This document shows positions 3 to 5,723 of a DNA stretch of 5,723 bases, one piece after another. The DNA lies in contig JADZET010000366.1 of the NCBI GenBank assembly GCA_020850375.1, positions 1 to 5,723 on the forward strand, written 5' to 3'. The DNA is from Phycisphaeraceae bacterium (GTDB lineage: Bacteria > Planctomycetota > Phycisphaerae > Phycisphaerales > Phycisphaeraceae). The first letter of the stretch is position 1, and every line of letters starts with the position of its first letter. The translations under genes were made by a program, and so were the position numbers. Below the pieces are notes generated by a model. That model made no database searches and was not told the origin of the DNA. It saw only the letters and a program-made list of their open reading frames with translations.

Positions 3-434
3 AACGTCCACCGCGGCGAGGAGATCTTCCAGGAGGTCTTCCTGCTCGTCTGGGCCAAGCGCACGCTCTACGAGTTCCCCCGTCCCTTCAAGCCCTGGCT
101 CTATCAGATCGCGGTCAACCGCTGCCGGCAGGAGCTTCGTCTCAAACGGCTTGGCCTGGTCAACATGCCGTTCCTGGATCCCCTGGACATCCAGGCTGCG
201 CCGACCCCCTCCCCTGCCGAGGTGGCCATCCAGACCGAGACGGCCTCCCTCGTTCAGGAGGCCCTCTTAACGCTCCCGGTCAAGCAACGCGAGGTGGTGG
301 TCATGCGCGTCTGGGGCGGCCTGTCCTACACCCAGATCGCCCAGGCCACCAACTGGCGCGAGTCCAGCGTCCGTTCACACATGCACCACGCCCTGACCAC
401 CTTGCGGGCCCGGATCGAGACCCGTTTGCGGTGA
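3..434 (+). CDS. ECF-type RNA polymerase sigma factor, 5'-truncated by the window edge
   Basis: Reading from base 3, an open frame of 143 codons runs to TGA 432-434 with no stop, so the gene enters from outside the window. The visible N-terminal part (EEIFQEVFLLVW, then FKPWLYQIAVNRCRQELR) matches the end of sigma-70 region 2, which binds core polymerase and the -10 element. A short proline-rich linker follows (around 180-230). Bases 273-414 encode region 4, a helix-turn-helix that reads the -35 element: LPVKQREVVVMRVWGGLSYTQIA, then SSVRSHMHHALTTLRARI. ECF sigma factors are usually 160-200 residues, so roughly 30-50 residues are missing. The internal ATG at 165 is not the start, because region 2 lies upstream of it in the same frame. 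No C-terminal extension is present. The next gene starts 32 bases downstream on the same strand and appears to encode its membrane anti-sigma partner. The sigma-family call is firm; the regulon is unknown. Confidence 0.93.
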   Translation, partial: NVHRGEEIFQEVFLLVWAKRTLYEFPRPFKPWLYQIAVNRCRQELRLKRLGLVNMPFLDPLDIQAAPTPSPAEVAIQTETASLVQEALLTLPVKQREVVVMRVWGGLSYTQIAQATNWRESSVRSHMHHALTTLRARIETRLR

Positions 435-453
435 TCCTGCGTCCGTTGGACGC

Positions 454-459
454 AAGGAG
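454..459 (+). promoter_or_regulatory. Ribosome binding site setting the A2M gene start
   Basis: AAGGAG sits 7 bases before ATG 467, a near-ideal Shine-Dalgarno sequence and spacing. It favours ATG 467 over the in-frame GTG at 431. That GTG overlaps the sigma stop codon as GTGA, has no comparable purine-rich site in front of it, and would add 12 residues. No terminator or promoter-like sequence is evident in the 32-base gap, so the two genes are probably co-transcribed. Confidence 0.75.
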
Positions 460-466
460 CTCAGCC

Positions 467-799
467 ATGCAACGACGACACGATGACGTGCAGGGATGGG
501 TCGAGGATTACCTCCACGGCCTGCTCGACGACGAGCAGAGCGCGTTCGTCCGCGACCAGGTCGAGACCAATCCACTCTGGCAGGTGGCCATGACGCAGGC
601 CCAGCAGCGCCTGGACGCCATGCGGGAGCTGCCGGCCGTCGAGCCCTCGGAGAAGCTCATCCAGACCACCCTCCGCCGGGTCGACAACCGGGCGCGGTGG
701 AACCGCATGACCCGGCGTTGGAGCTGGCGCGTCACCGCGGGCCTGCTGACGGCCGCGGCGATCGTGCTCGCCAGTGTCCACCTCTACTTCCTGACGCTT
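467..799 (+). other. Anti-sigma-like cytosolic domain plus transmembrane anchor (region of the A2M gene)
   Basis: Residues 1-60 include VEDYLHGLLDDEQSAFV, then NPLWQVAM and QQRLDAMREL. This follows the anti-sigma domain pattern: a first helix with x-YL-x-G-x-L, an acidic D/E-E turn, a second helix, then a proline and a third helix ending in a leucine-rich stretch. The HxxxCxxC zinc motif of ZAS domains is absent, as in RskA-like or FecR-like anti-sigma domains, where a D/N-P-x-W type segment fills that place. Residues 70-88 hold eight arginines, and 89-111 form a clean hydrophobic helix. Arginines before the helix predict a cytosolic N terminus. Position directly after an ECF sigma gene is the strongest support. 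The domain call rests on pattern and context, not on a profile search. Confidence 0.65.
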
Positions 800-3700
800 T
801 CACCCACGCCCTACAACCTCGAAGTGCTCGGCCAATCCGAGCTGCTGGTCGACGCCCCGGCATCGCTGCACGTCCGGCTCGTCAACCAGAAGACGCACCA
901 GCCGATCGAGAACGCCGACATCCAGATCGCCCTTTATGAACCTGGAACGGGCCGGCAGGTCGAGCTGGCGGAATTCCGCACCGACAGCCGTGGCTCGGGC
1001 TCGCCACGCTTCACGATGCCGGACTGGAACGTCGGCTCCTACCAACTCCGCGTGACGGCCAGGCCTCGTGGCGGCGCGACCGAGTCGCTCACGCAGTCCG
1101 TCCGCCTCATCCGCTCCTGGCAGGTCATGGTCAGCTCGGACAAGCCCGTCTATCAGCCCGGCCAAACCATCCTCGTCCGCTGCCAGGCCCTGCGCAAGCC
1201 GGACCTCAAGCCCGTCGGCGGGCAGGACATCCTCTGGACCGTGGCCGACCCCAAGGGCAACATCATCTTCAAGCGGCACGACGTCAGCAGCCGGTTCGGC
1301 ATCGGCTCGATGCAGTGCCCGCTGGCCGACGAGCTGATCGAGGGCCCCTACACCATCACCTGTCAGCTCGGAGACACCACCAGCAGCCTGACCGTCGAGG
1401 TCAAGAAGTACGTCCTGCCGAAGTTCAAGGTCGATATCGAGCTGGACAAGCCCTTCTGCCAGCCCGGCGACCTCCTGCGCGGCCAGGTCGACGCCCACTA
1501 CTACTTCGGCAAGCCCCTGGCCGGCGCGGCGATCGACGTGCAGATGCAGTCGACCGGCTTCCAGCAGCCCGTGGTCCAGCTCCCCCGTCTCTACGCCGAT
1601 CCCGACGGCAAGGCCAGATTCGAGCTGCGCATCCCCACCTGGCTCGCCGGCCGGGAGCAGGACAGCGGCCACGCCCGTGTCCTGATCACCGTGACGGTCA
1701 CCGACACCGCCGGCCAGCAGCAGTCGCGCACGCTCGACCGGGCGGTGGTCTCCGAGCCCCTGCAGATCGAGGTGATCCCCGAGGACGGCCAGCTCGTCCA
1801 GGGCATCCCCAACAAGATCTACCTGCTGGTGACCTACCCCGATGGTTCGCCCGCCCAGGCCGACCTCGACGTCACGGGCATCGAGCAGTCCGTCCGGACC
1901 AGCGACGCCGGGGTGGCGGAGGTCGAGCTCACCCCCCTATCGCCGACGCTGGCCCTGACCCTCCGCGCGACAGACGACCGCGGCCTGACCGGCCTGCGCC
2001 GCGTCACCCTGACCTGCGGCAAGGGCACAGCCGACTTCATCACCCGCGTGGACCGAGCCGTGTACGACGGCGGGCAGAGCGTCCGCGTGACAGTCCTGAG
2101 CGGCTCCGCCGCCAGTCGGCAGCCGGTCTACATGGACCTGATCAAAGATGGCCAGACCATGCTCACCACCTCGGCCGAGTTCAAGGACGGCCGAGCCGAG
2201 CACGTCATCGACCTGCCGCCAGACCTCAGCGGCACGCTGCAACTGATTACCTACCGCTACGACGCCGACACAGGCCTGCCCGTGCGCAAGAGCCGCGTGA
2301 TCTACGTCCGCCCCGCCCGTCAGATCGACGTGCAGACGACGCTCGACCGCCCCGAGTACCGCCCGGGCGACCAGGCCCAGCTCAGCCTCCAGCTCCGCGA
2401 CGCCCAGGGCGAGCCCGTGCCCGGCGCGATCAGCCTCGTGGCCGTGGACGAAGCGGTCTTCGGCGTCCTCGAGCAGCGCCCGGGCCTGGAGCAGACCTTC
2501 TTCACCCTCGAGCAGGAGCTGCTCAAGCCCGTCTACGCGATCTACCCGTGGTCGCCCGACCTGACAACCAGCCTGCCCCCGGCGGATCGGCAATCGCTCG
2601 AACAAGCGATCTTCTCCCGCACCGCGGCGGCGAAGGTCGGTAGTCGCGAGGAACTGTTCCGGCGCCTCGTTGATCAGAAGCTCCTCGATCCCGACTATTT
2701 GCGAATCGAGGATTTGGATGGTTTCGAAGAGGCTTGGCAGCGCCAGCTGTCCAATGGAATGCTTCCCGAAGATGTCGTCCAGATCCTGCGCAAGGCGGAA
2801 TACTCACCGTACAGCCTGACCGGTGGGACCTATGCTGAGAAGGCCGCACAGACACGTGTGGCTCGTCGCAGCGGCATCGAGGCGATGGCCGTCGCATGGA
2901 CCCTTTATGTGTTCGTCGCGATCATCGCGGGAATTGCCTGCCTGTTGACCTACTTGCACATGACCACGGGCAGAACCATCCTCAACTTTGTGCTGATTAT
3001 GTTGGCGATCTTTCTCCTGGGAAGCCTGTTGCTTCCATCGCTAGGCACTGCACGCCGTCAAGCCAGACGCAGTGAAGCATCCGCTCGCGCCCACGGCATT
3101 GGTCAAGCGTTGGCCATGCTAAGCGATCAGGCCGTGCCTACGCCCGAGAGCCTCACAGCGGACCAGCCCGTCCGCGTGCGTCAGTGGTTCCCCGAGACGC
3201 TGCTCTGGAAGCCCCAGATCATCACCGACGACCAAGGCCGCGCGAACCTCAGCATCGACCTGGCCGACTCGATCACCACCTGGCGGCTGAGCGCCGGGGC
3301 CGTCACGGCCGACGGACAACTCGGCGGCACGCAGACGCCCATCCGCGTCTTCCAGCCCTTCTTCGTCGACCTGAACCTGCCCGTCGCCCTGACCCGCGGG
3401 GATGAGGTGGCCGTGCCCGTGGTGGTCTACAACTACGTGGACCAGCCGCAGACCGTCCGCCTCGAGCTCCAGCCCGACGGCTGGTTCACGCTCCTGGATG
3501 AGCCCGTGCAGCAGATCCAGCTCGCCGCCCACGAGGTGCGGGCCACGTCGTACCGCATCCGGGCCGCGAAGGTCGGCCAGCACGAGCTCCAGGTCCTCGC
3601 CCGCGGCCAGGGCGGCGACTCCGACGCCATCCGCCGATCCATTGAGGTGAACCCCGACGGCCGACTCGTCGAGCAGACCCTCAACGGGTCGCTCACCCAG

Positions 3701-5296
3701 CCCGTGTCGCTGTCCCTGGACTTCCCCGCCGACGCCATCGAGGGCAGCGGCAAGCTCCTGGTCAAGATCTACCCCACCACCTTCAGCCAGGTCGTCGAGG
3801 GCCTCGAGGGCATCTTCAGGCAGCCCTACGGCTGCTTCGAGCAGACCTCCTCCACGACCTACCCCAACGTCCTGGCCCTGGACTACCTCCGCCGCACGGG
3901 CAAGAGCGTCCCCGCCGTCGAGGCCAGGGCGCAGCAGTACATCCACCTCGGCTACCAGCGATTGCTGAGCTTCGAGATCCCGGGGGGCGGTTTCGACTGG
4001 TTCGGCCGGCCGCCCGCCAATCGCACGCTGACCGCCTATGGCCTGATGGAGTTCATGGACATGGCCCGCGTGCACGACGTCGACCCCCGGCTCATCGAGC
4101 GCACCCGCCAGTGGCTCATGCAGCAGCGCGACGCCGACGGCTCCTGGTCGCCCGAGGACCACCGCATGCACGAAGACCCCACCGGCCGGTCGCAGGCCCG
4201 GCTCTCGACCACGGCCTACATCGCCTGGGGCCTGTTCGGCGGCGACGACCGACGCCACCCCGAGGGCGCTGCCACCTACGACTACCTGCTCCGACACCGC
4301 CCCTCCTCGATCGACGACCCCTACACCCTGGCACTGGTGTGCAACGCCCTGCACGCCCTCTGGCCCGACTCGCATGACGTCGATCCTTACCTCGGAAAGC
4401 TCGCAAGCCTGCGTCGCACCAGCAGCGATGGCAAGCTCAACTGGTGGACTCAGTCACCCGGCGGCCGCACCACCTTCTACGGCGCGGGCGGCGGCGGCGA
4501 CGTCGAGACCACCGCGACAGCGTGCTTGGCGCTCATGCGTCGCCCACAGGAAGCCCTGCTGCTTCGCGGCGCACTGACCTGGCTGATCCAGCAGCGGTCG
4601 TCCAACGGCGTCTGGCCGTCGACCCAGGCCACCGTCCTGGCCCTCAAGGCCCTGCTGGCCGCCAGCGGCACGCCCCTGGGCGGGGACCAGGAACGGCTGA
4701 TCAGCGTCGCACTCGACGGCCAGGTGAGCGAGCGACGGTACATCTCCGAGGACCAGGCCGACGTGCTCCAGCAGATCGACCTCTCGGGTCGCGTCTCTCC
4801 CGGCCGGCACCGCCTGGACATCACTGAGTCGACCGGCGGCAGCAGCTACCAGGTGGTCCACCGCTACCACGTCCCGGACACCCTGGCCGCCAAGCCCCAG
4901 GAACCGCTGGAGATCACGGTGAGCTACGACCGCCGGCAGATGCAGGTCGGCCAGCCCCTCGCCGCCGTGGCCACGGTGACCAACCGCACCGCCGACGTCG
5001 CCCCGATGGTGATCCTGGACCTGCCGATCCCGGCCGGCTTCGAGCTGCGGGCGCAGGACTTCGACGCCCTGGTCAAAGCCGGCTCGATCGCCAAGTACCA
5101 GCTCACGCCGCGCAGCGTGATCGTCTACCTGCGGCAACTCGCGACTGGTCAGCGGCTCGAGCTTCGCTATCACCTTGAGCCCACGATGCCCGTAAGACTC
5201 ACCGTGCCCGGAGCCGAAGCGTACGAATATTACGATCCAGACCGCCGCGGGAGAAGCCCCTCCATGGAAATCGTAGTTTGCCAACCGACAATCTGA
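467..5296 (+). CDS. Membrane-anchored alpha-2-macroglobulin family protein with N-terminal anti-sigma-like domain
   Basis: The gene encodes 1609 residues. Residues 1-60 are an anti-sigma-like cytosolic domain, 70-88 are arginine-rich, and 89-111 form a transmembrane helix. MG domains follow: ~112-217; an MG2-type domain with DKPVYQPGQT (225-234); an MG3-type domain with YVLPKF (315-320) and YYFGKPL (345-351); then MG4/MG5 from ~430. An MG6 / bait-associated segment (~526-698) contains VDEAVF (660-665). An unusual insertion with two hydrophobic helices spans ~700-900. MG7 carries FPETLLW (908-914). The thioester domain (~1095-1400) carries GCFEQ with Cys1123 and Gln1126, and STQ at 1385-1387. 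A receptor-binding-like domain occupies ~1475-1605. Known for the family: A2Ms trap proteases; cutting of the bait collapses the structure and exposes a Cys-Gln thioester that bonds the attacker. Bacterial members sit in the cell envelope, many as lipoproteins; this one has a helix and no lipobox. Length is close to the usual ~1500-1700. Inferred role: envelope protease trap and sensor controlling the upstream sigma factor. Confidence 0.95.
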   Translation: MQRRHDDVQGWVEDYLHGLLDDEQSAFVRDQVETNPLWQVAMTQAQQRLDAMRELPAVEPSEKLIQTTLRRVDNRARWNRMTRRWSWRVTAGLLTAAAIVLASVHLYFLTLSPTPYNLEVLGQSELLVDAPASLHVRLVNQKTHQPIENADIQIALYEPGTGRQVELAEFRTDSRGSGSPRFTMPDWNVGSYQLRVTARPRGGATESLTQSVRLIRSWQVMVSSDKPVYQPGQTILVRCQALRKPDLKPVGGQDILWTVADPKGNIIFKRHDVSSRFGIGSMQCPLADELIEGPYTITCQLGDTTSSLTVEVKKYVLPKFKVDIELDKPFCQPGDLLRGQVDAHYYFGKPLAGAAIDVQMQSTGFQQPVVQLPRLYADPDGKARFELRIPTWLAGREQDSGHARVLITVTVTDTAGQQQSRTLDRAVVSEPLQIEVIPEDGQLVQGIPNKIYLLVTYPDGSPAQADLDVTGIEQSVRTSDAGVAEVELTPLSPTLALTLRATDDRGLTGLRRVTLTCGKGTADFITRVDRAVYDGGQSVRVTVLSGSAASRQPVYMDLIKDGQTMLTTSAEFKDGRAEHVIDLPPDLSGTLQLITYRYDADTGLPVRKSRVIYVRPARQIDVQTTLDRPEYRPGDQAQLSLQLRDAQGEPVPGAISLVAVDEAVFGVLEQRPGLEQTFFTLEQELLKPVYAIYPWSPDLTTSLPPADRQSLEQAIFSRTAAAKVGSREELFRRLVDQKLLDPDYLRIEDLDGFEEAWQRQLSNGMLPEDVVQILRKAEYSPYSLTGGTYAEKAAQTRVARRSGIEAMAVAWTLYVFVAIIAGIACLLTYLHMTTGRTILNFVLIMLAIFLLGSLLLPSLGTARRQARRSEASARAHGIGQALAMLSDQAVPTPESLTADQPVRVRQWFPETLLWKPQIITDDQGRANLSIDLADSITTWRLSAGAVTADGQLGGTQTPIRVFQPFFVDLNLPVALTRGDEVAVPVVVYNYVDQPQTVRLELQPDGWFTLLDEPVQQIQLAAHEVRATSYRIRAAKVGQHELQVLARGQGGDSDAIRRSIEVNPDGRLVEQTLNGSLTQPVSLSLDFPADAIEGSGKLLVKIYPTTFSQVVEGLEGIFRQPYGCFEQTSSTTYPNVLALDYLRRTGKSVPAVEARAQQYIHLGYQRLLSFEIPGGGFDWFGRPPANRTLTAYGLMEFMDMARVHDVDPRLIERTRQWLMQQRDADGSWSPEDHRMHEDPTGRSQARLSTTAYIAWGLFGGDDRRHPEGAATYDYLLRHRPSSIDDPYTLALVCNALHALWPDSHDVDPYLGKLASLRRTSSDGKLNWWTQSPGGRTTFYGAGGGGDVETTATACLALMRRPQEALLLRGALTWLIQQRSSNGVWPSTQATVLALKALLAASGTPLGGDQERLISVALDGQVSERRYISEDQADVLQQIDLSGRVSPGRHRLDITESTGGSSYQVVHRYHVPDTLAAKPQEPLEITVSYDRRQMQVGQPLAAVATVTNRTADVAPMVILDLPIPAGFELRAQDFDALVKAGSIAKYQLTPRSVIVYLRQLATGQRLELRYHLEPTMPVRLTVPGAEAYEYYDPDRRGRSPSMEIVVCQPTI
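2564..3166 (+). other. Insertion with two hydrophobic helices at the expected bait position of the A2M gene
   Basis: Codons ~700-900 lie between the MG6 core (ending near YAIYPWSP, 690-697) and the start of MG7 (FPETLLW at 908). In A2Ms this is where the protease bait lies. It encodes a charged, probably helical stretch (~726-785), an arginine-containing stretch (RVARRSG, ~797-803), helix 1 (806-830), a short turn (HMTTGR), helix 2 (838-860), then a basic tail with ARRQARR at 862-868 and arginine again at 874. The DNA is visibly less GC-rich: sample lines give 48-58% GC against 72% in a flanking line. GC at third codon positions is about two thirds over 160 codons (2642-3121), against about 95% just downstream. 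The reading frame stays intact through both edges, so this is a true part of the protein. Edges are approximate. Confidence 0.8.
3821..3844 (+). other. Thioester motif QPYGCFEQ of the A2M protein
   Basis: Residues 1119-1126 read QPYGCFEQ. Cys1123 and Gln1126 are the pair that forms the internal thioester in A2M and complement proteins, where the animal consensus is GCGEQ. Bacterial members commonly vary the residue after Cys, and Phe here falls in that position. The motif is followed by TSSTTYPNVLALDYL, as expected at the start of the alpha/alpha toroid thioester domain. Both reactive residues are kept, so covalent capture of a target is chemically plausible. Confidence 0.9.
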
Positions 5297-5308
5297 CATA
5301 CATGTCAG
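5293..5308. repeat. Short palindrome across the A2M stop codon
   Basis: CTGACAT (5293-5299) and ATGTCAG (5302-5308) are perfect inverted copies separated by AC, giving a 16-base dyad. The TGA stop (5294-5296) lies inside the left arm. It could be a protein-binding site or chance. A 2-base loop is too tight for a full RNA hairpin, and no T-tract follows, so it is not a terminator. Confidence 0.5.
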
Positions 5309-5490
5309 GGTTCCATACCCGGCAGGGACATAAGTGGCTCGCAACAACAGTCTTACAGAACATCATGCTCGTGTCGAACCTGACACATCTGCCACCAACA
5401 ACCCCGTTTGAGAGACGAATTGACGTACACCAGACCACACACCGCTTTGCAGCAAGTCTAGATTCGGCCAGCGAGCCGTATCGATCCAAG
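5297..5490. other. Intergenic region without a supported gene
   Basis: This stretch between the A2M stop and the terminator is lower in GC than the coding DNA (48% in the line starting at 5341). Its codon pattern in all frames is unlike the neighbouring genes. A frame of 74 codons from a TTG at 5278 crosses it, but it has no good ribosome binding site, no recognisable protein pattern, and runs into the terminator stem. I see no tRNA, no repeat array and no clear promoter. It is probably the 3' untranslated region of the sigma/A2M transcript. Confidence 0.5.
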
Positions 5491-5514
5491 AAGCCCCGCT
5501 AACGCGGGGCTTTT
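5491..5514 (+). terminator. Rho-independent terminator after the A2M gene
   Basis: AAGCCCCGC (5491-5499) pairs perfectly with GCGGGGCTT (5504-5512) around a TAAC loop. The 9-bp GC-rich stem runs into a TTTT tract (5511-5514), followed by GGCTT. This is a textbook intrinsic terminator for the plus strand. It lies 195 bases after the A2M stop, and no other plus-strand gene lies between, so it most likely ends the sigma/A2M transcript. Read on the minus strand the same stem is followed by CTTGG, a much poorer tract. Confidence 0.9.
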
Positions 5515-5554
5515 GGCTTGATTGGCCGCCCGCAGAGACGCCCCTGTGTCGAAT

Positions 5555-5647
5555 CTTGACGCCACAATCGGCCGCTCTTGGCCGAACGTCTCTTTCGCGG
5601 ATTTCGGCGGTGCGCTTTTCAAGAGATGGGGTTATTGGGGCGTCAAG
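5555..5647. repeat. Separated 9-bp inverted repeat in the downstream spacer
   Basis: CTTGACGCC (5555-5563) and GGCGTCAAG (5639-5647) are perfect reverse complements 75 bases apart. The right copy overlaps the end of the proposed minus-strand gene. AGAGACG (5534-5540) and CGTCTCT (5587-5593) form a second, interleaved pair. The significance is unclear; they could be remnants of a mobile element or long-range RNA structure. Confidence 0.35.
5568..5585 (-). terminator. Possible weak terminator hairpin for the convergent minus-strand gene
   Basis: TCGGCC (5568-5573) and GGCCGA (5580-5585) form a perfect 6-bp stem with a 6-base loop. On the minus strand it lies 46 bases beyond the proposed stop codon and is followed by TTGTGG, only a weak T-rich tail. 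Position suits a terminator, strength does not; the call is tentative. Confidence 0.3.
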
Positions 5648-5721
5648 GCATCCCCATAGCAGGCCGCATTGACGGAGGCGGCATCGAGTCGCAGGTAGCG
5701 CCCCTGCCAGTCTGCTCTAGA
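5632..5721 (-). CDS. C-terminal end of a convergent gene, function unknown (partial)
   Basis: On the minus strand, reading in from the window edge, 29 sense codons end at TAA (plus-strand TTA at 5632-5634). The peptide includes ADWQGRYLRLDAAS and ends CYGDALTPQ. About 69% of third positions are G or C by hand count (20 of 29), which fits a coding frame in this genome. The other two minus frames contain stops: TAG at the very edge, and TGA at the end of the third. The fragment is too short to assign a family. It would be transcribed towards the A2M gene, with the spacer and terminator between them. It could still be a chance open frame. Confidence 0.4.
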   Translation of the reverse strand, partial: SRADWQGRYLRLDAASVNAACYGDALTPQ

Positions 5722-5723
5722 CA

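Follow-up and report, generated by a model that had tools for sequence, protein, structure and literature searches.

An ECF sigma factor gene followed directly by the gene of a protein that joins an anti-sigma-like N-terminus to an alpha-2-macroglobulin (A2M) raises the question of whether an A2M can serve as the sensor of a transcriptional switch. In the literature that we searched, bacterial A2Ms are described as traps and not as receptors. The locus was examined computationally, together with its homologues, in a stretch of 5,723 nucleotides from a Phycisphaeraceae bacterium (hereafter, the window). Our results suggest that the two genes probably constitute a signalling unit, in which an ECF sigma factor would be held by a membrane anti-sigma factor with a complement-type A2M as its outer sensor, and would be freed by cleavage of the bait region. 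The features of the window are listed in Table 1.

Table 1 Features of the two-gene locus in the 5,723-nucleotide window.
Feature	Position	Strand	Basis
3' portion of the ECF sigma factor gene (143 codons and stop)	3..434	+	Pfam; PDB sequence search
Part of sigma region 2	about 18-146	+	Pfam; PDB sequence search
Sigma region 4	about 252-404	+	Pfam; PDB sequence search
AAGGAG, likely ribosome-binding site, 7 nt upstream of the ATG at 467	454..459	+	read from sequence
Anti-sigma/A2M fusion gene, 1609 aa (P0001)	467..5296	+	ORF, Pfam
Residues 1-80: predicted class I anti-sigma domain, zinc ligands (Hx3Cx2C) lost	467..706	+	family profile, HMM, model
Anti-sigma helices 2-16, 22-34, and 36-54, and helix 4 from 62	within 467..706	+	structure model
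Residues 73-88: Arg-rich stretch upstream of TM1, inside flank	683..730	+	sequence; family flank charge
TM1, residues 93-111	743..799	+	hydropathy; family flank charge
Residues 113-697: macroglobulin domains through MG6	803..2557	+	Pfam, alignment, model, fold search
Residues 698-808: linker leading to the hairpin (family mean pairwise identity 23%)	2558..2890	+	alignment
TM2, residues 809-827, at the bait-region position	2891..2947	+	hydropathy, profile borders, model
Residues 832-880: TM3 and Arg-rich helix, similar to the N-terminus of type II pseudopilins; G-1 present, Asn at the Glu5 place	2960..3106	+	searches against pseudopilins
Residues 858-900: hypervariable, candidate bait for cleavage, overlapping the last part of the pilin-like helix	3038..3166	+	alignment, model
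Residues 903-914 RVRQWFPETLLW: plug (alpha'NT) motif	3173..3208	+	alignment; mapped by motif to human A2M
Residues 911-1001: Pfam A2M domain (MG7)	3197..3469	+	Pfam
Residues 1104-1396: thioester domain	3776..4654	+	Pfam
GCFEQ thioester motif, residues 1122-1126	3830..3844	+	sequence, alignment
Residues 1513-1595: A2M receptor-binding-type C-terminal domain	5003..5251	+	Pfam
GC-rich hairpin GCCCCGC-TAAC-GCGGGGC, then TTTT; possible terminator of the two-gene unit	5493..5514	+	read from sequence

The sigma ORF, which ends with a stop codon at 432-434, contained both regions of the ECF sigma class, i.e. region 4 (Sigma70_r4_2, 56.9 bits) and region 2 (Sigma70_r2, 28.1 bits); the gene is truncated at its 5' end by the start of the window, which cuts region 2. 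Its solved relatives in a sequence search of the PDB included SigW (5wuq_A, E = 1.7e-11). The preliminary description of this DNA had reported an ECF sigma gene, a gap of 32 bases, and then an A2M gene, and this layout was confirmed by the Pfam matches and the two ORFs (3-434 and 467-5296, with the spacer at 435-466). A chance ORF or a misread start of the fusion gene was ruled out by the family HMM described below, the likely ribosome-binding site, and the many homologues. Downstream of the A2M gene (5297-5723), no convincing gene and two terminator-like hairpins were found; a terminator scan did not report the hairpin at 5493-5514 and reported a different one at 5568-5585.

The fusion protein consists of a four-helix N-terminal domain, an Arg-rich stretch, a transmembrane (TM) helix, and a thioester-type A2M. 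Its N-terminus gave no anti-sigma match in Pfam and weak anti-sigma matches in NCBIfam (E about 1e-3, 18-19 bits, with cut-offs of 100 and 225). An assignment via Pfam alone was accordingly set aside, and a family profile was required. An HMM built solely from 92 homologous rows carrying the zinc motif, with the window left out, gave the window N-terminus 75.4 bits, whereas the best of 1000 shuffles reached 6.8 bits, indicating that the likeness is not due to chance. When a profile of 29 rows (the window and 28 loci) was compared with the PDB, RsiW (E = 2e-4) and 3hug_B (E = 6e-4) were matched; the latter, entered under the molecule name 'probable conserved membrane protein', we take to be RslA. 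ChrR, matched by the same profile, was not significant (E = 0.07). The structure model of the domain (pLDDT 92.7) showed the three-helix bundle and helix 4 expected of class I anti-sigma domains, helix 4 (62-110) being the one that enters the membrane. In a Foldseek search with the N-terminal domain, 9 of the 28 matches were anti-sigma domains, in agreement with the sequence matches, but none of them was significant alone, and the predicted structure by itself was rejected as proof of anti-sigma identity.

The zinc motif Hx3Cx2C, which defines the ZAS subtype, was present within the first 90 residues of 92 of 121 rows (120 listed homologues and the window); the window protein was among the 29 rows without it and hence does not belong to that subtype. 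The Pfam family zf-HC2 exceeded its cut-off in one homologue (P0014), not in two others (P0013 and P0038), and was precomputed in 4 of the 120 listed homologues. According to the accessible text of PMC7406223, about 44% of the class I anti-sigma domains in a published set have no zinc motif, and the loss of the motif is therefore compatible with membership. On sequence grounds, residues 1-80 are assigned to the class I anti-sigma domains; the anti-sigma-like N-terminus first proposed for this protein is borne out by the family profile matches, the HMM score, and the modelled helices. Given this family membership and the synteny described below, the N-terminal domain presumably binds the sigma factor.

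The A2M part exceeded the Pfam cut-offs for MG2, MG3, MG4, BRD, A2M, TED, and the receptor domain. Together with the fold of residues 113-1103 and the CxEQ thioester motif (GCFEQ in the window), this domain set identified an A2M of the thioester type, and the fusion of an A2M ectodomain to the anti-sigma domain, as originally proposed, was upheld. When residues 113-1103 (window 803-3775) were used for a Foldseek search, human C3, A2ML1, and CD109 were placed above the E. coli A2M, with E values down to 1e-44; the E. coli protein (ECAM) ranked 49 among the best 50 rows. R905 and F908 were invariant in two overlapping sets of aligned rows (28/28 and 40/40) and, in a mapping by motif, stand at the positions of R732 and F735 of human A2M. 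The accessible text of PMC9352918 describes the latter as plug residues, the retraction of the plug from its channel triggering the collapse of the protein.

TM segments were called with a hydropathy window of 19 and not by a trained predictor. The protein had been described as having one TM helix followed by a full A2M ectodomain; TM1 and the A2M domains were indeed found, but two further TM segments (about 809-827 and 838-856) were detected within the ectodomain. In 102 proteins, the mean net charge was +4.4 before TM1 and -0.3 after it. The strongly positive inner flank of TM1 suggests that the anti-sigma domain is cytoplasmic and the A2M outside, and with this topology TM3 would run from inside to outside. 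Pilin helices also run from inside to outside. The outward flanks of the hairpin formed by TM2 and TM3 were positive on average (+2.0 before TM2 and +1.2 after TM3), contrary to the positive-inside rule.

TM2 and TM3 of the window occupy the expected place of the bait region, between MG6 and MG7. With borders defined by profiles, 74 of 114 rows could be placed: two or more TM segments lay between MG6 and MG7 in all 23 placed fusions (19 recognized by HMM and 4 assigned by eye) and in 6 of the 47 placed A2Ms without an anti-sigma domain, and 4 further rows were cut at the 5' end. The 40 unplaced rows have a locus that stops within the gene, a fragmented gene, or no recognized MG7. Six bait TM segments were counted in three fusions (L029-L031). 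In a tree of 65 rows, the two-TM planctomycete fusions formed one fully supported group of 21 rows, two of which (L011 and L021) lack their 5' end; the six-TM forms were placed beside this group. The structure model contained a long helical hairpin (789-833 and 836-885) of moderate confidence, followed by a disordered segment (887-907). The stretch after TM3 was the most variable long segment, with 11% mean pairwise identity and a length of 31-90 aa in the homologues, whereas MG7, just after it, was 74% identical in the family. A variable and disordered stretch is present, but it is joined to a TM hairpin, and the bait region of the fusions is predicted to be membrane-bound. Six A2Ms with no detected anti-sigma domain (L036, L039, L055, L075, L020, and L061) had two to six TM segments at the bait position; the last bait helices of L055 and L061 looked pilin-like by eye.

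TM3 resembled a particular class of membrane helix. In a whole-protein search, residues 813-907 were unexpectedly matched by ORFs of 336-390 residues in two genomes (best E = 2e-6, in one genome). Three of the matched ORFs, out of five stretches, were scanned with Pfam; all three passed the cut-off of N_methyl and two passed that of DUF1559. The window insert scored 45.1 bits against the best pseudopilin ORF, compared with at most 34.3 bits in 1000 hydropathy-preserving shuffles and 15.4 bits for a TM1 piece; this shuffle control covers composition and hydropathy alone, because the pilin targets had been found with the same protein. A motif of the LLPxxxxAR type, searched with a regular expression that fixes the P and the A/S-R/K pair, was present in 57 of 145 inserts, a set in which some loci repeat listed proteins, the window occurs twice, and five loci were added by hand. 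Glu stood at the exact place of pilin Glu5 in 17 of the 57. Of four homologues picked for a Pfam scan, two (P0013 and P0038) had DUF1559 above its cut-off in the bait, and this family was precomputed in 11 of the 120 listed homologues. The window insert itself had no pilin match in Pfam, its likeness resting instead on the BLAST matches to pseudopilins and on the homologues; in NCBIfam, it gave a weak match to GspG (E = 0.01). A type II pseudopilin carries its prepilin motif with Glu5 at the N-terminus, whereas this segment is internal and has Asn at that place. TM3 therefore appears to be pilin-derived or pilin-like and is not a pilin.

A search with residues 1-460 yielded 1229 proteins at E ≤ 1e-3 from 7991 scored candidates. 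The family rows used here were 120 listed matches, each covering 97-100% of residues 1-460, and the window. The closest protein among the matches listed was P0003, named Phycisphaeraceae, with 92% identity over these residues. The thioester motif was found in every one of the 111 rows (of 121) longer than 1450 aa; by a simple hydropathy scan, 106 of these long rows had one N-terminal TM segment and 107 had exactly two between MG6 and MG7. The automatic source names of the 120 listed proteins included 'anti-sigma factor RsiW' once and 'pseudopilin PulG' four times. Matches reaching into the anti-sigma domain occurred in at least 15 of 297 genomes of one class and at least 5 of 298 of another, in at least 10 of 102 genomes of one order, and in at least 5 of 196 and at least 3 of 146 genomes in two further draws by order. 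In a draw from the phylum, with two candidates scored per genome, at least 4 of 392 genomes had a listed match that began no later than residue 10. All these counts are lower bounds from overlapping samples, in which scoring covered the 2-22 top candidates of each genome. The fusion family appears to be large but sporadic.

Linkage to the sigma gene was examined in a sample of 114 distinct A2M N-terminal pieces, 103 of which had at least 500 bp of upstream DNA; the window, with less than 500 bp, is not among the loci counted. All 29 loci in which the anti-sigma domain was detected had an ECF sigma ORF immediately upstream, compared with 6 of the 74 in which it was not (Fisher, 5e-20). Since the loci were picked by similarity to the family, these counts hold for it and for the A2Ms closest to it rather than for A2Ms at large. 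By eye, the N-termini of four of the six domain-negative rows looked anti-sigma-like, either of the zinc type (L029 and L082) or resembling FecR (L030 and L031); the other two (L078 and the second L024 row) were gene fragments. The distance from the end of the sigma ORF to the start of the A2M match was 0-183 bases, with a median of 60, in the 29 loci. Had homologues carried this N-terminus without a sigma gene nearby, the original proposal would have failed; a sigma ORF adjoined in every testable locus, and the pairing of the sigma factor with the anti-sigma/A2M protein is well supported by sequence and synteny. Among 21 loci including the window, no third gene family recurred beyond pairs of loci from close relatives, except for ORFs antisense to sigma that were common to three. 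In this comparison, made at the level of gene families, the result may speak against an arrangement like that of YfhM and PbpC.

In 28 pairs, sigma distances correlated with anti-sigma distances at r = 0.65 (0.49 as a partial correlation controlling for the MG domains) and with MG-domain distances at r = 0.60 (partial 0.41). The coevolution signal is consistent with the pairing but not decisive, because the correlation with the MG domains was nearly as high; a specific sigma/anti-sigma coevolution, only weakly above this control, was not retained. In a crude search of the DNA preceding 33 sigma genes, 12 ECF promoter motifs were tried, none of which was clearly more frequent than in shuffles. 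In an unbiased scan, the commonest motif pair was present at 14 of the 33 genes and at no more than 6 in shuffles; it was not used as an ECF promoter because the scanned regions probably include coding sequence. A close A2M relative, L125, matched the model from position 74 and had neither the anti-sigma domain nor an upstream sigma ORF, as if the two had been lost together.

The mechanism that we infer, including the binding and release of the sigma factor, a protease as the stimulus, and the regulon, would be as follows. At rest, the N-terminal helical domain would hold the sigma factor in the cytoplasm, and TM1 would link this domain to the A2M, which would lie beyond the inner membrane. 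From MG6, the bait chain would cross the membrane as a hairpin of TM2 and the pilin-like TM3, return as the variable disordered stretch, and reach MG7 at the conserved plug motif. A break in the bait outside the hairpin, made by a protease or by other damage, would let the plug retract and the A2M collapse; as known A2Ms do, the collapsed protein could then capture the attacker through its thioester. Since the A2M would be tied to the membrane by three TM helices, its collapse may shift the N-terminal half or expose TM1 to intramembrane proteolysis, as for RseA, which is released by sequential proteolysis according to the accessible text of PMC8103513. The freed sigma factor would then transcribe its genes, perhaps including its own operon, by which the used-up trap would be replaced. 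A membrane hairpin with a pilin-like helix in the bait changes how the trigger could work. Counting against the proposed mechanism are the positive outward flanks of this hairpin and its unlikeness to soluble baits, the lack of zinc ligands and of a Pfam match in the N-terminus of the window protein, the fold matches below significance, the promoter search that yielded no motif, and the sporadic occurrence of the family. We tentatively suggest, with less confidence than the signalling unit as such, that the bait has become a pilin-like membrane hairpin that tethers the plug to the membrane, so that retraction of the plug, whether set off by an external cut or by something that happens to the hairpin within the membrane, would be converted directly into sigma release.

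The hairpin might instead be the sensing element itself. It would then pack with pseudopilins or with their membrane platform, or respond to inner-membrane damage; proteases would not be the main signal, and pulling or loss of the hairpin would withdraw the A2M plug and free the sigma factor. The near-universal occurrence of the hairpin (exactly two TM segments in 107 of 111 long rows, two or more in all 23 placed fusions) and the pilin likeness of TM3, i.e. its score above all hydropathy-preserving shuffles, the LLPxxxxAR motif with Glu5 in some inserts, and DUF1559 in the bait of homologues, fit such a sensor. However, the pilin-like helix is poorly conserved (17% mean identity in the family), 88 of the 145 inserts lack the pilin motif, and only the sigma gene recurs beside the A2M beyond close relatives; moreover, the retained thioester and plug fit a trap triggered by cleavage. 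We consider a sensor of this kind unlikely.

Cleavage could also serve a narrower purpose, in that the A2M would be mainly a protease trap whose consumption is reported by the anti-sigma domain, with the sigma factor remaking the trap and controlling no wider regulon. A two-gene unit with short spacing and no further recurrent neighbour beyond close relatives would be expected of this circuit, but no autoregulatory promoter motif was found upstream of the 33 sigma genes, and the window does not contain the sigma promoter. ECF sigma factors, moreover, commonly have multiple targets, and a circuit restricted to refilling seems improbable to us. An N-terminal domain that is vestigial or serves just to anchor the protein, next to a sigma gene with no role in the system, would account for the zinc motif missing from 29 of 121 rows, the window included, and for L125, which has neither domain nor sigma gene. 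Against this stand the sigma linkage in 29 of 29 loci as opposed to 6 of 74 without a detected domain, the 43% mean identity of the anti-sigma domain in the family, and the frequency of published class I domains without the zinc motif, which together make this explanation highly improbable.

Each part of the protein has known counterparts. Like RsiW, RslA, RskA, and RseA, it has a short N-terminal helical bundle and helix 4 followed by a TM segment, and its gene lies directly 3' of its own ECF sigma gene; most rows of the family also share the Hx3Cx2C motif with the membrane class I anti-sigma factors. In contrast to these factors, the sensor of the fusion is a 1500-residue thioester macroglobulin with two extra TM segments inside. 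With E. coli YfhM (ECAM), a type I A2M associated with PbpC, it shares the CxEQ thioester and a bait between MG domains. Bacterial A2Ms are divided into type I and type II in the accessible text of PMC5764988, and that of PMC4498604 describes ECAM as linked to Pbp1C and anchored in the inner membrane, with a largely disordered bait; the fusion differs in its membrane hairpin within the bait, its anti-sigma N-terminus, and the absence of a recurrent third neighbour. Human complement C3, A2ML1, and CD109 resemble it in the fold of residues 113-1103 and the plug residues, but the fusion is bacterial, bears an N-terminal signalling domain, and carries the hairpin where they have a soluble bait or an ANA domain; known soluble baits in general differ from it in this respect. 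From the DUF1559 type II pseudopilins, which have a similar hydrophobic helix with an LLPxxxxAREAAR-like continuation, it is distinguished by the internal position of the segment, the lack of a pilin globular domain, and, in the window, the lack of Glu5.

The preliminary description knew of no anti-sigma/A2M fusion, and none was found described in the open papers that we searched. The accessible main text of PMC7406223 does not mention macroglobulin, A2M, or MG2, and the accessible passages of PMC12839542 that matched macroglobulin and anti-sigma were unrelated. Within these papers, the parts are known and their combination looks undescribed. A conserved chain of this kind would link envelope attack to transcription in planctomycetes and would be a new type of input for an ECF pair, in a natural design that couples a complement-type collapse to a membrane hairpin. 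If the proposal is true, a bacterial complement-like protein acts as a signalling receptor spread across the Planctomycetota; an evolutionary question also arises, namely why a macroglobulin bait should contain a pilin-like helix.

The A2M ORF of L126 begins, by eye, with a sequence like ECF sigma region 2 in frame with a TM segment and the A2M, and contains no anti-sigma domain; this joining may be genuine, may be left over from a deletion, or may have arisen in the assembly. In L030 and L031, which belong to the Verrucomicrobiota, a second ECF-like sigma ORF and another common gene were found 3' of the A2M gene.
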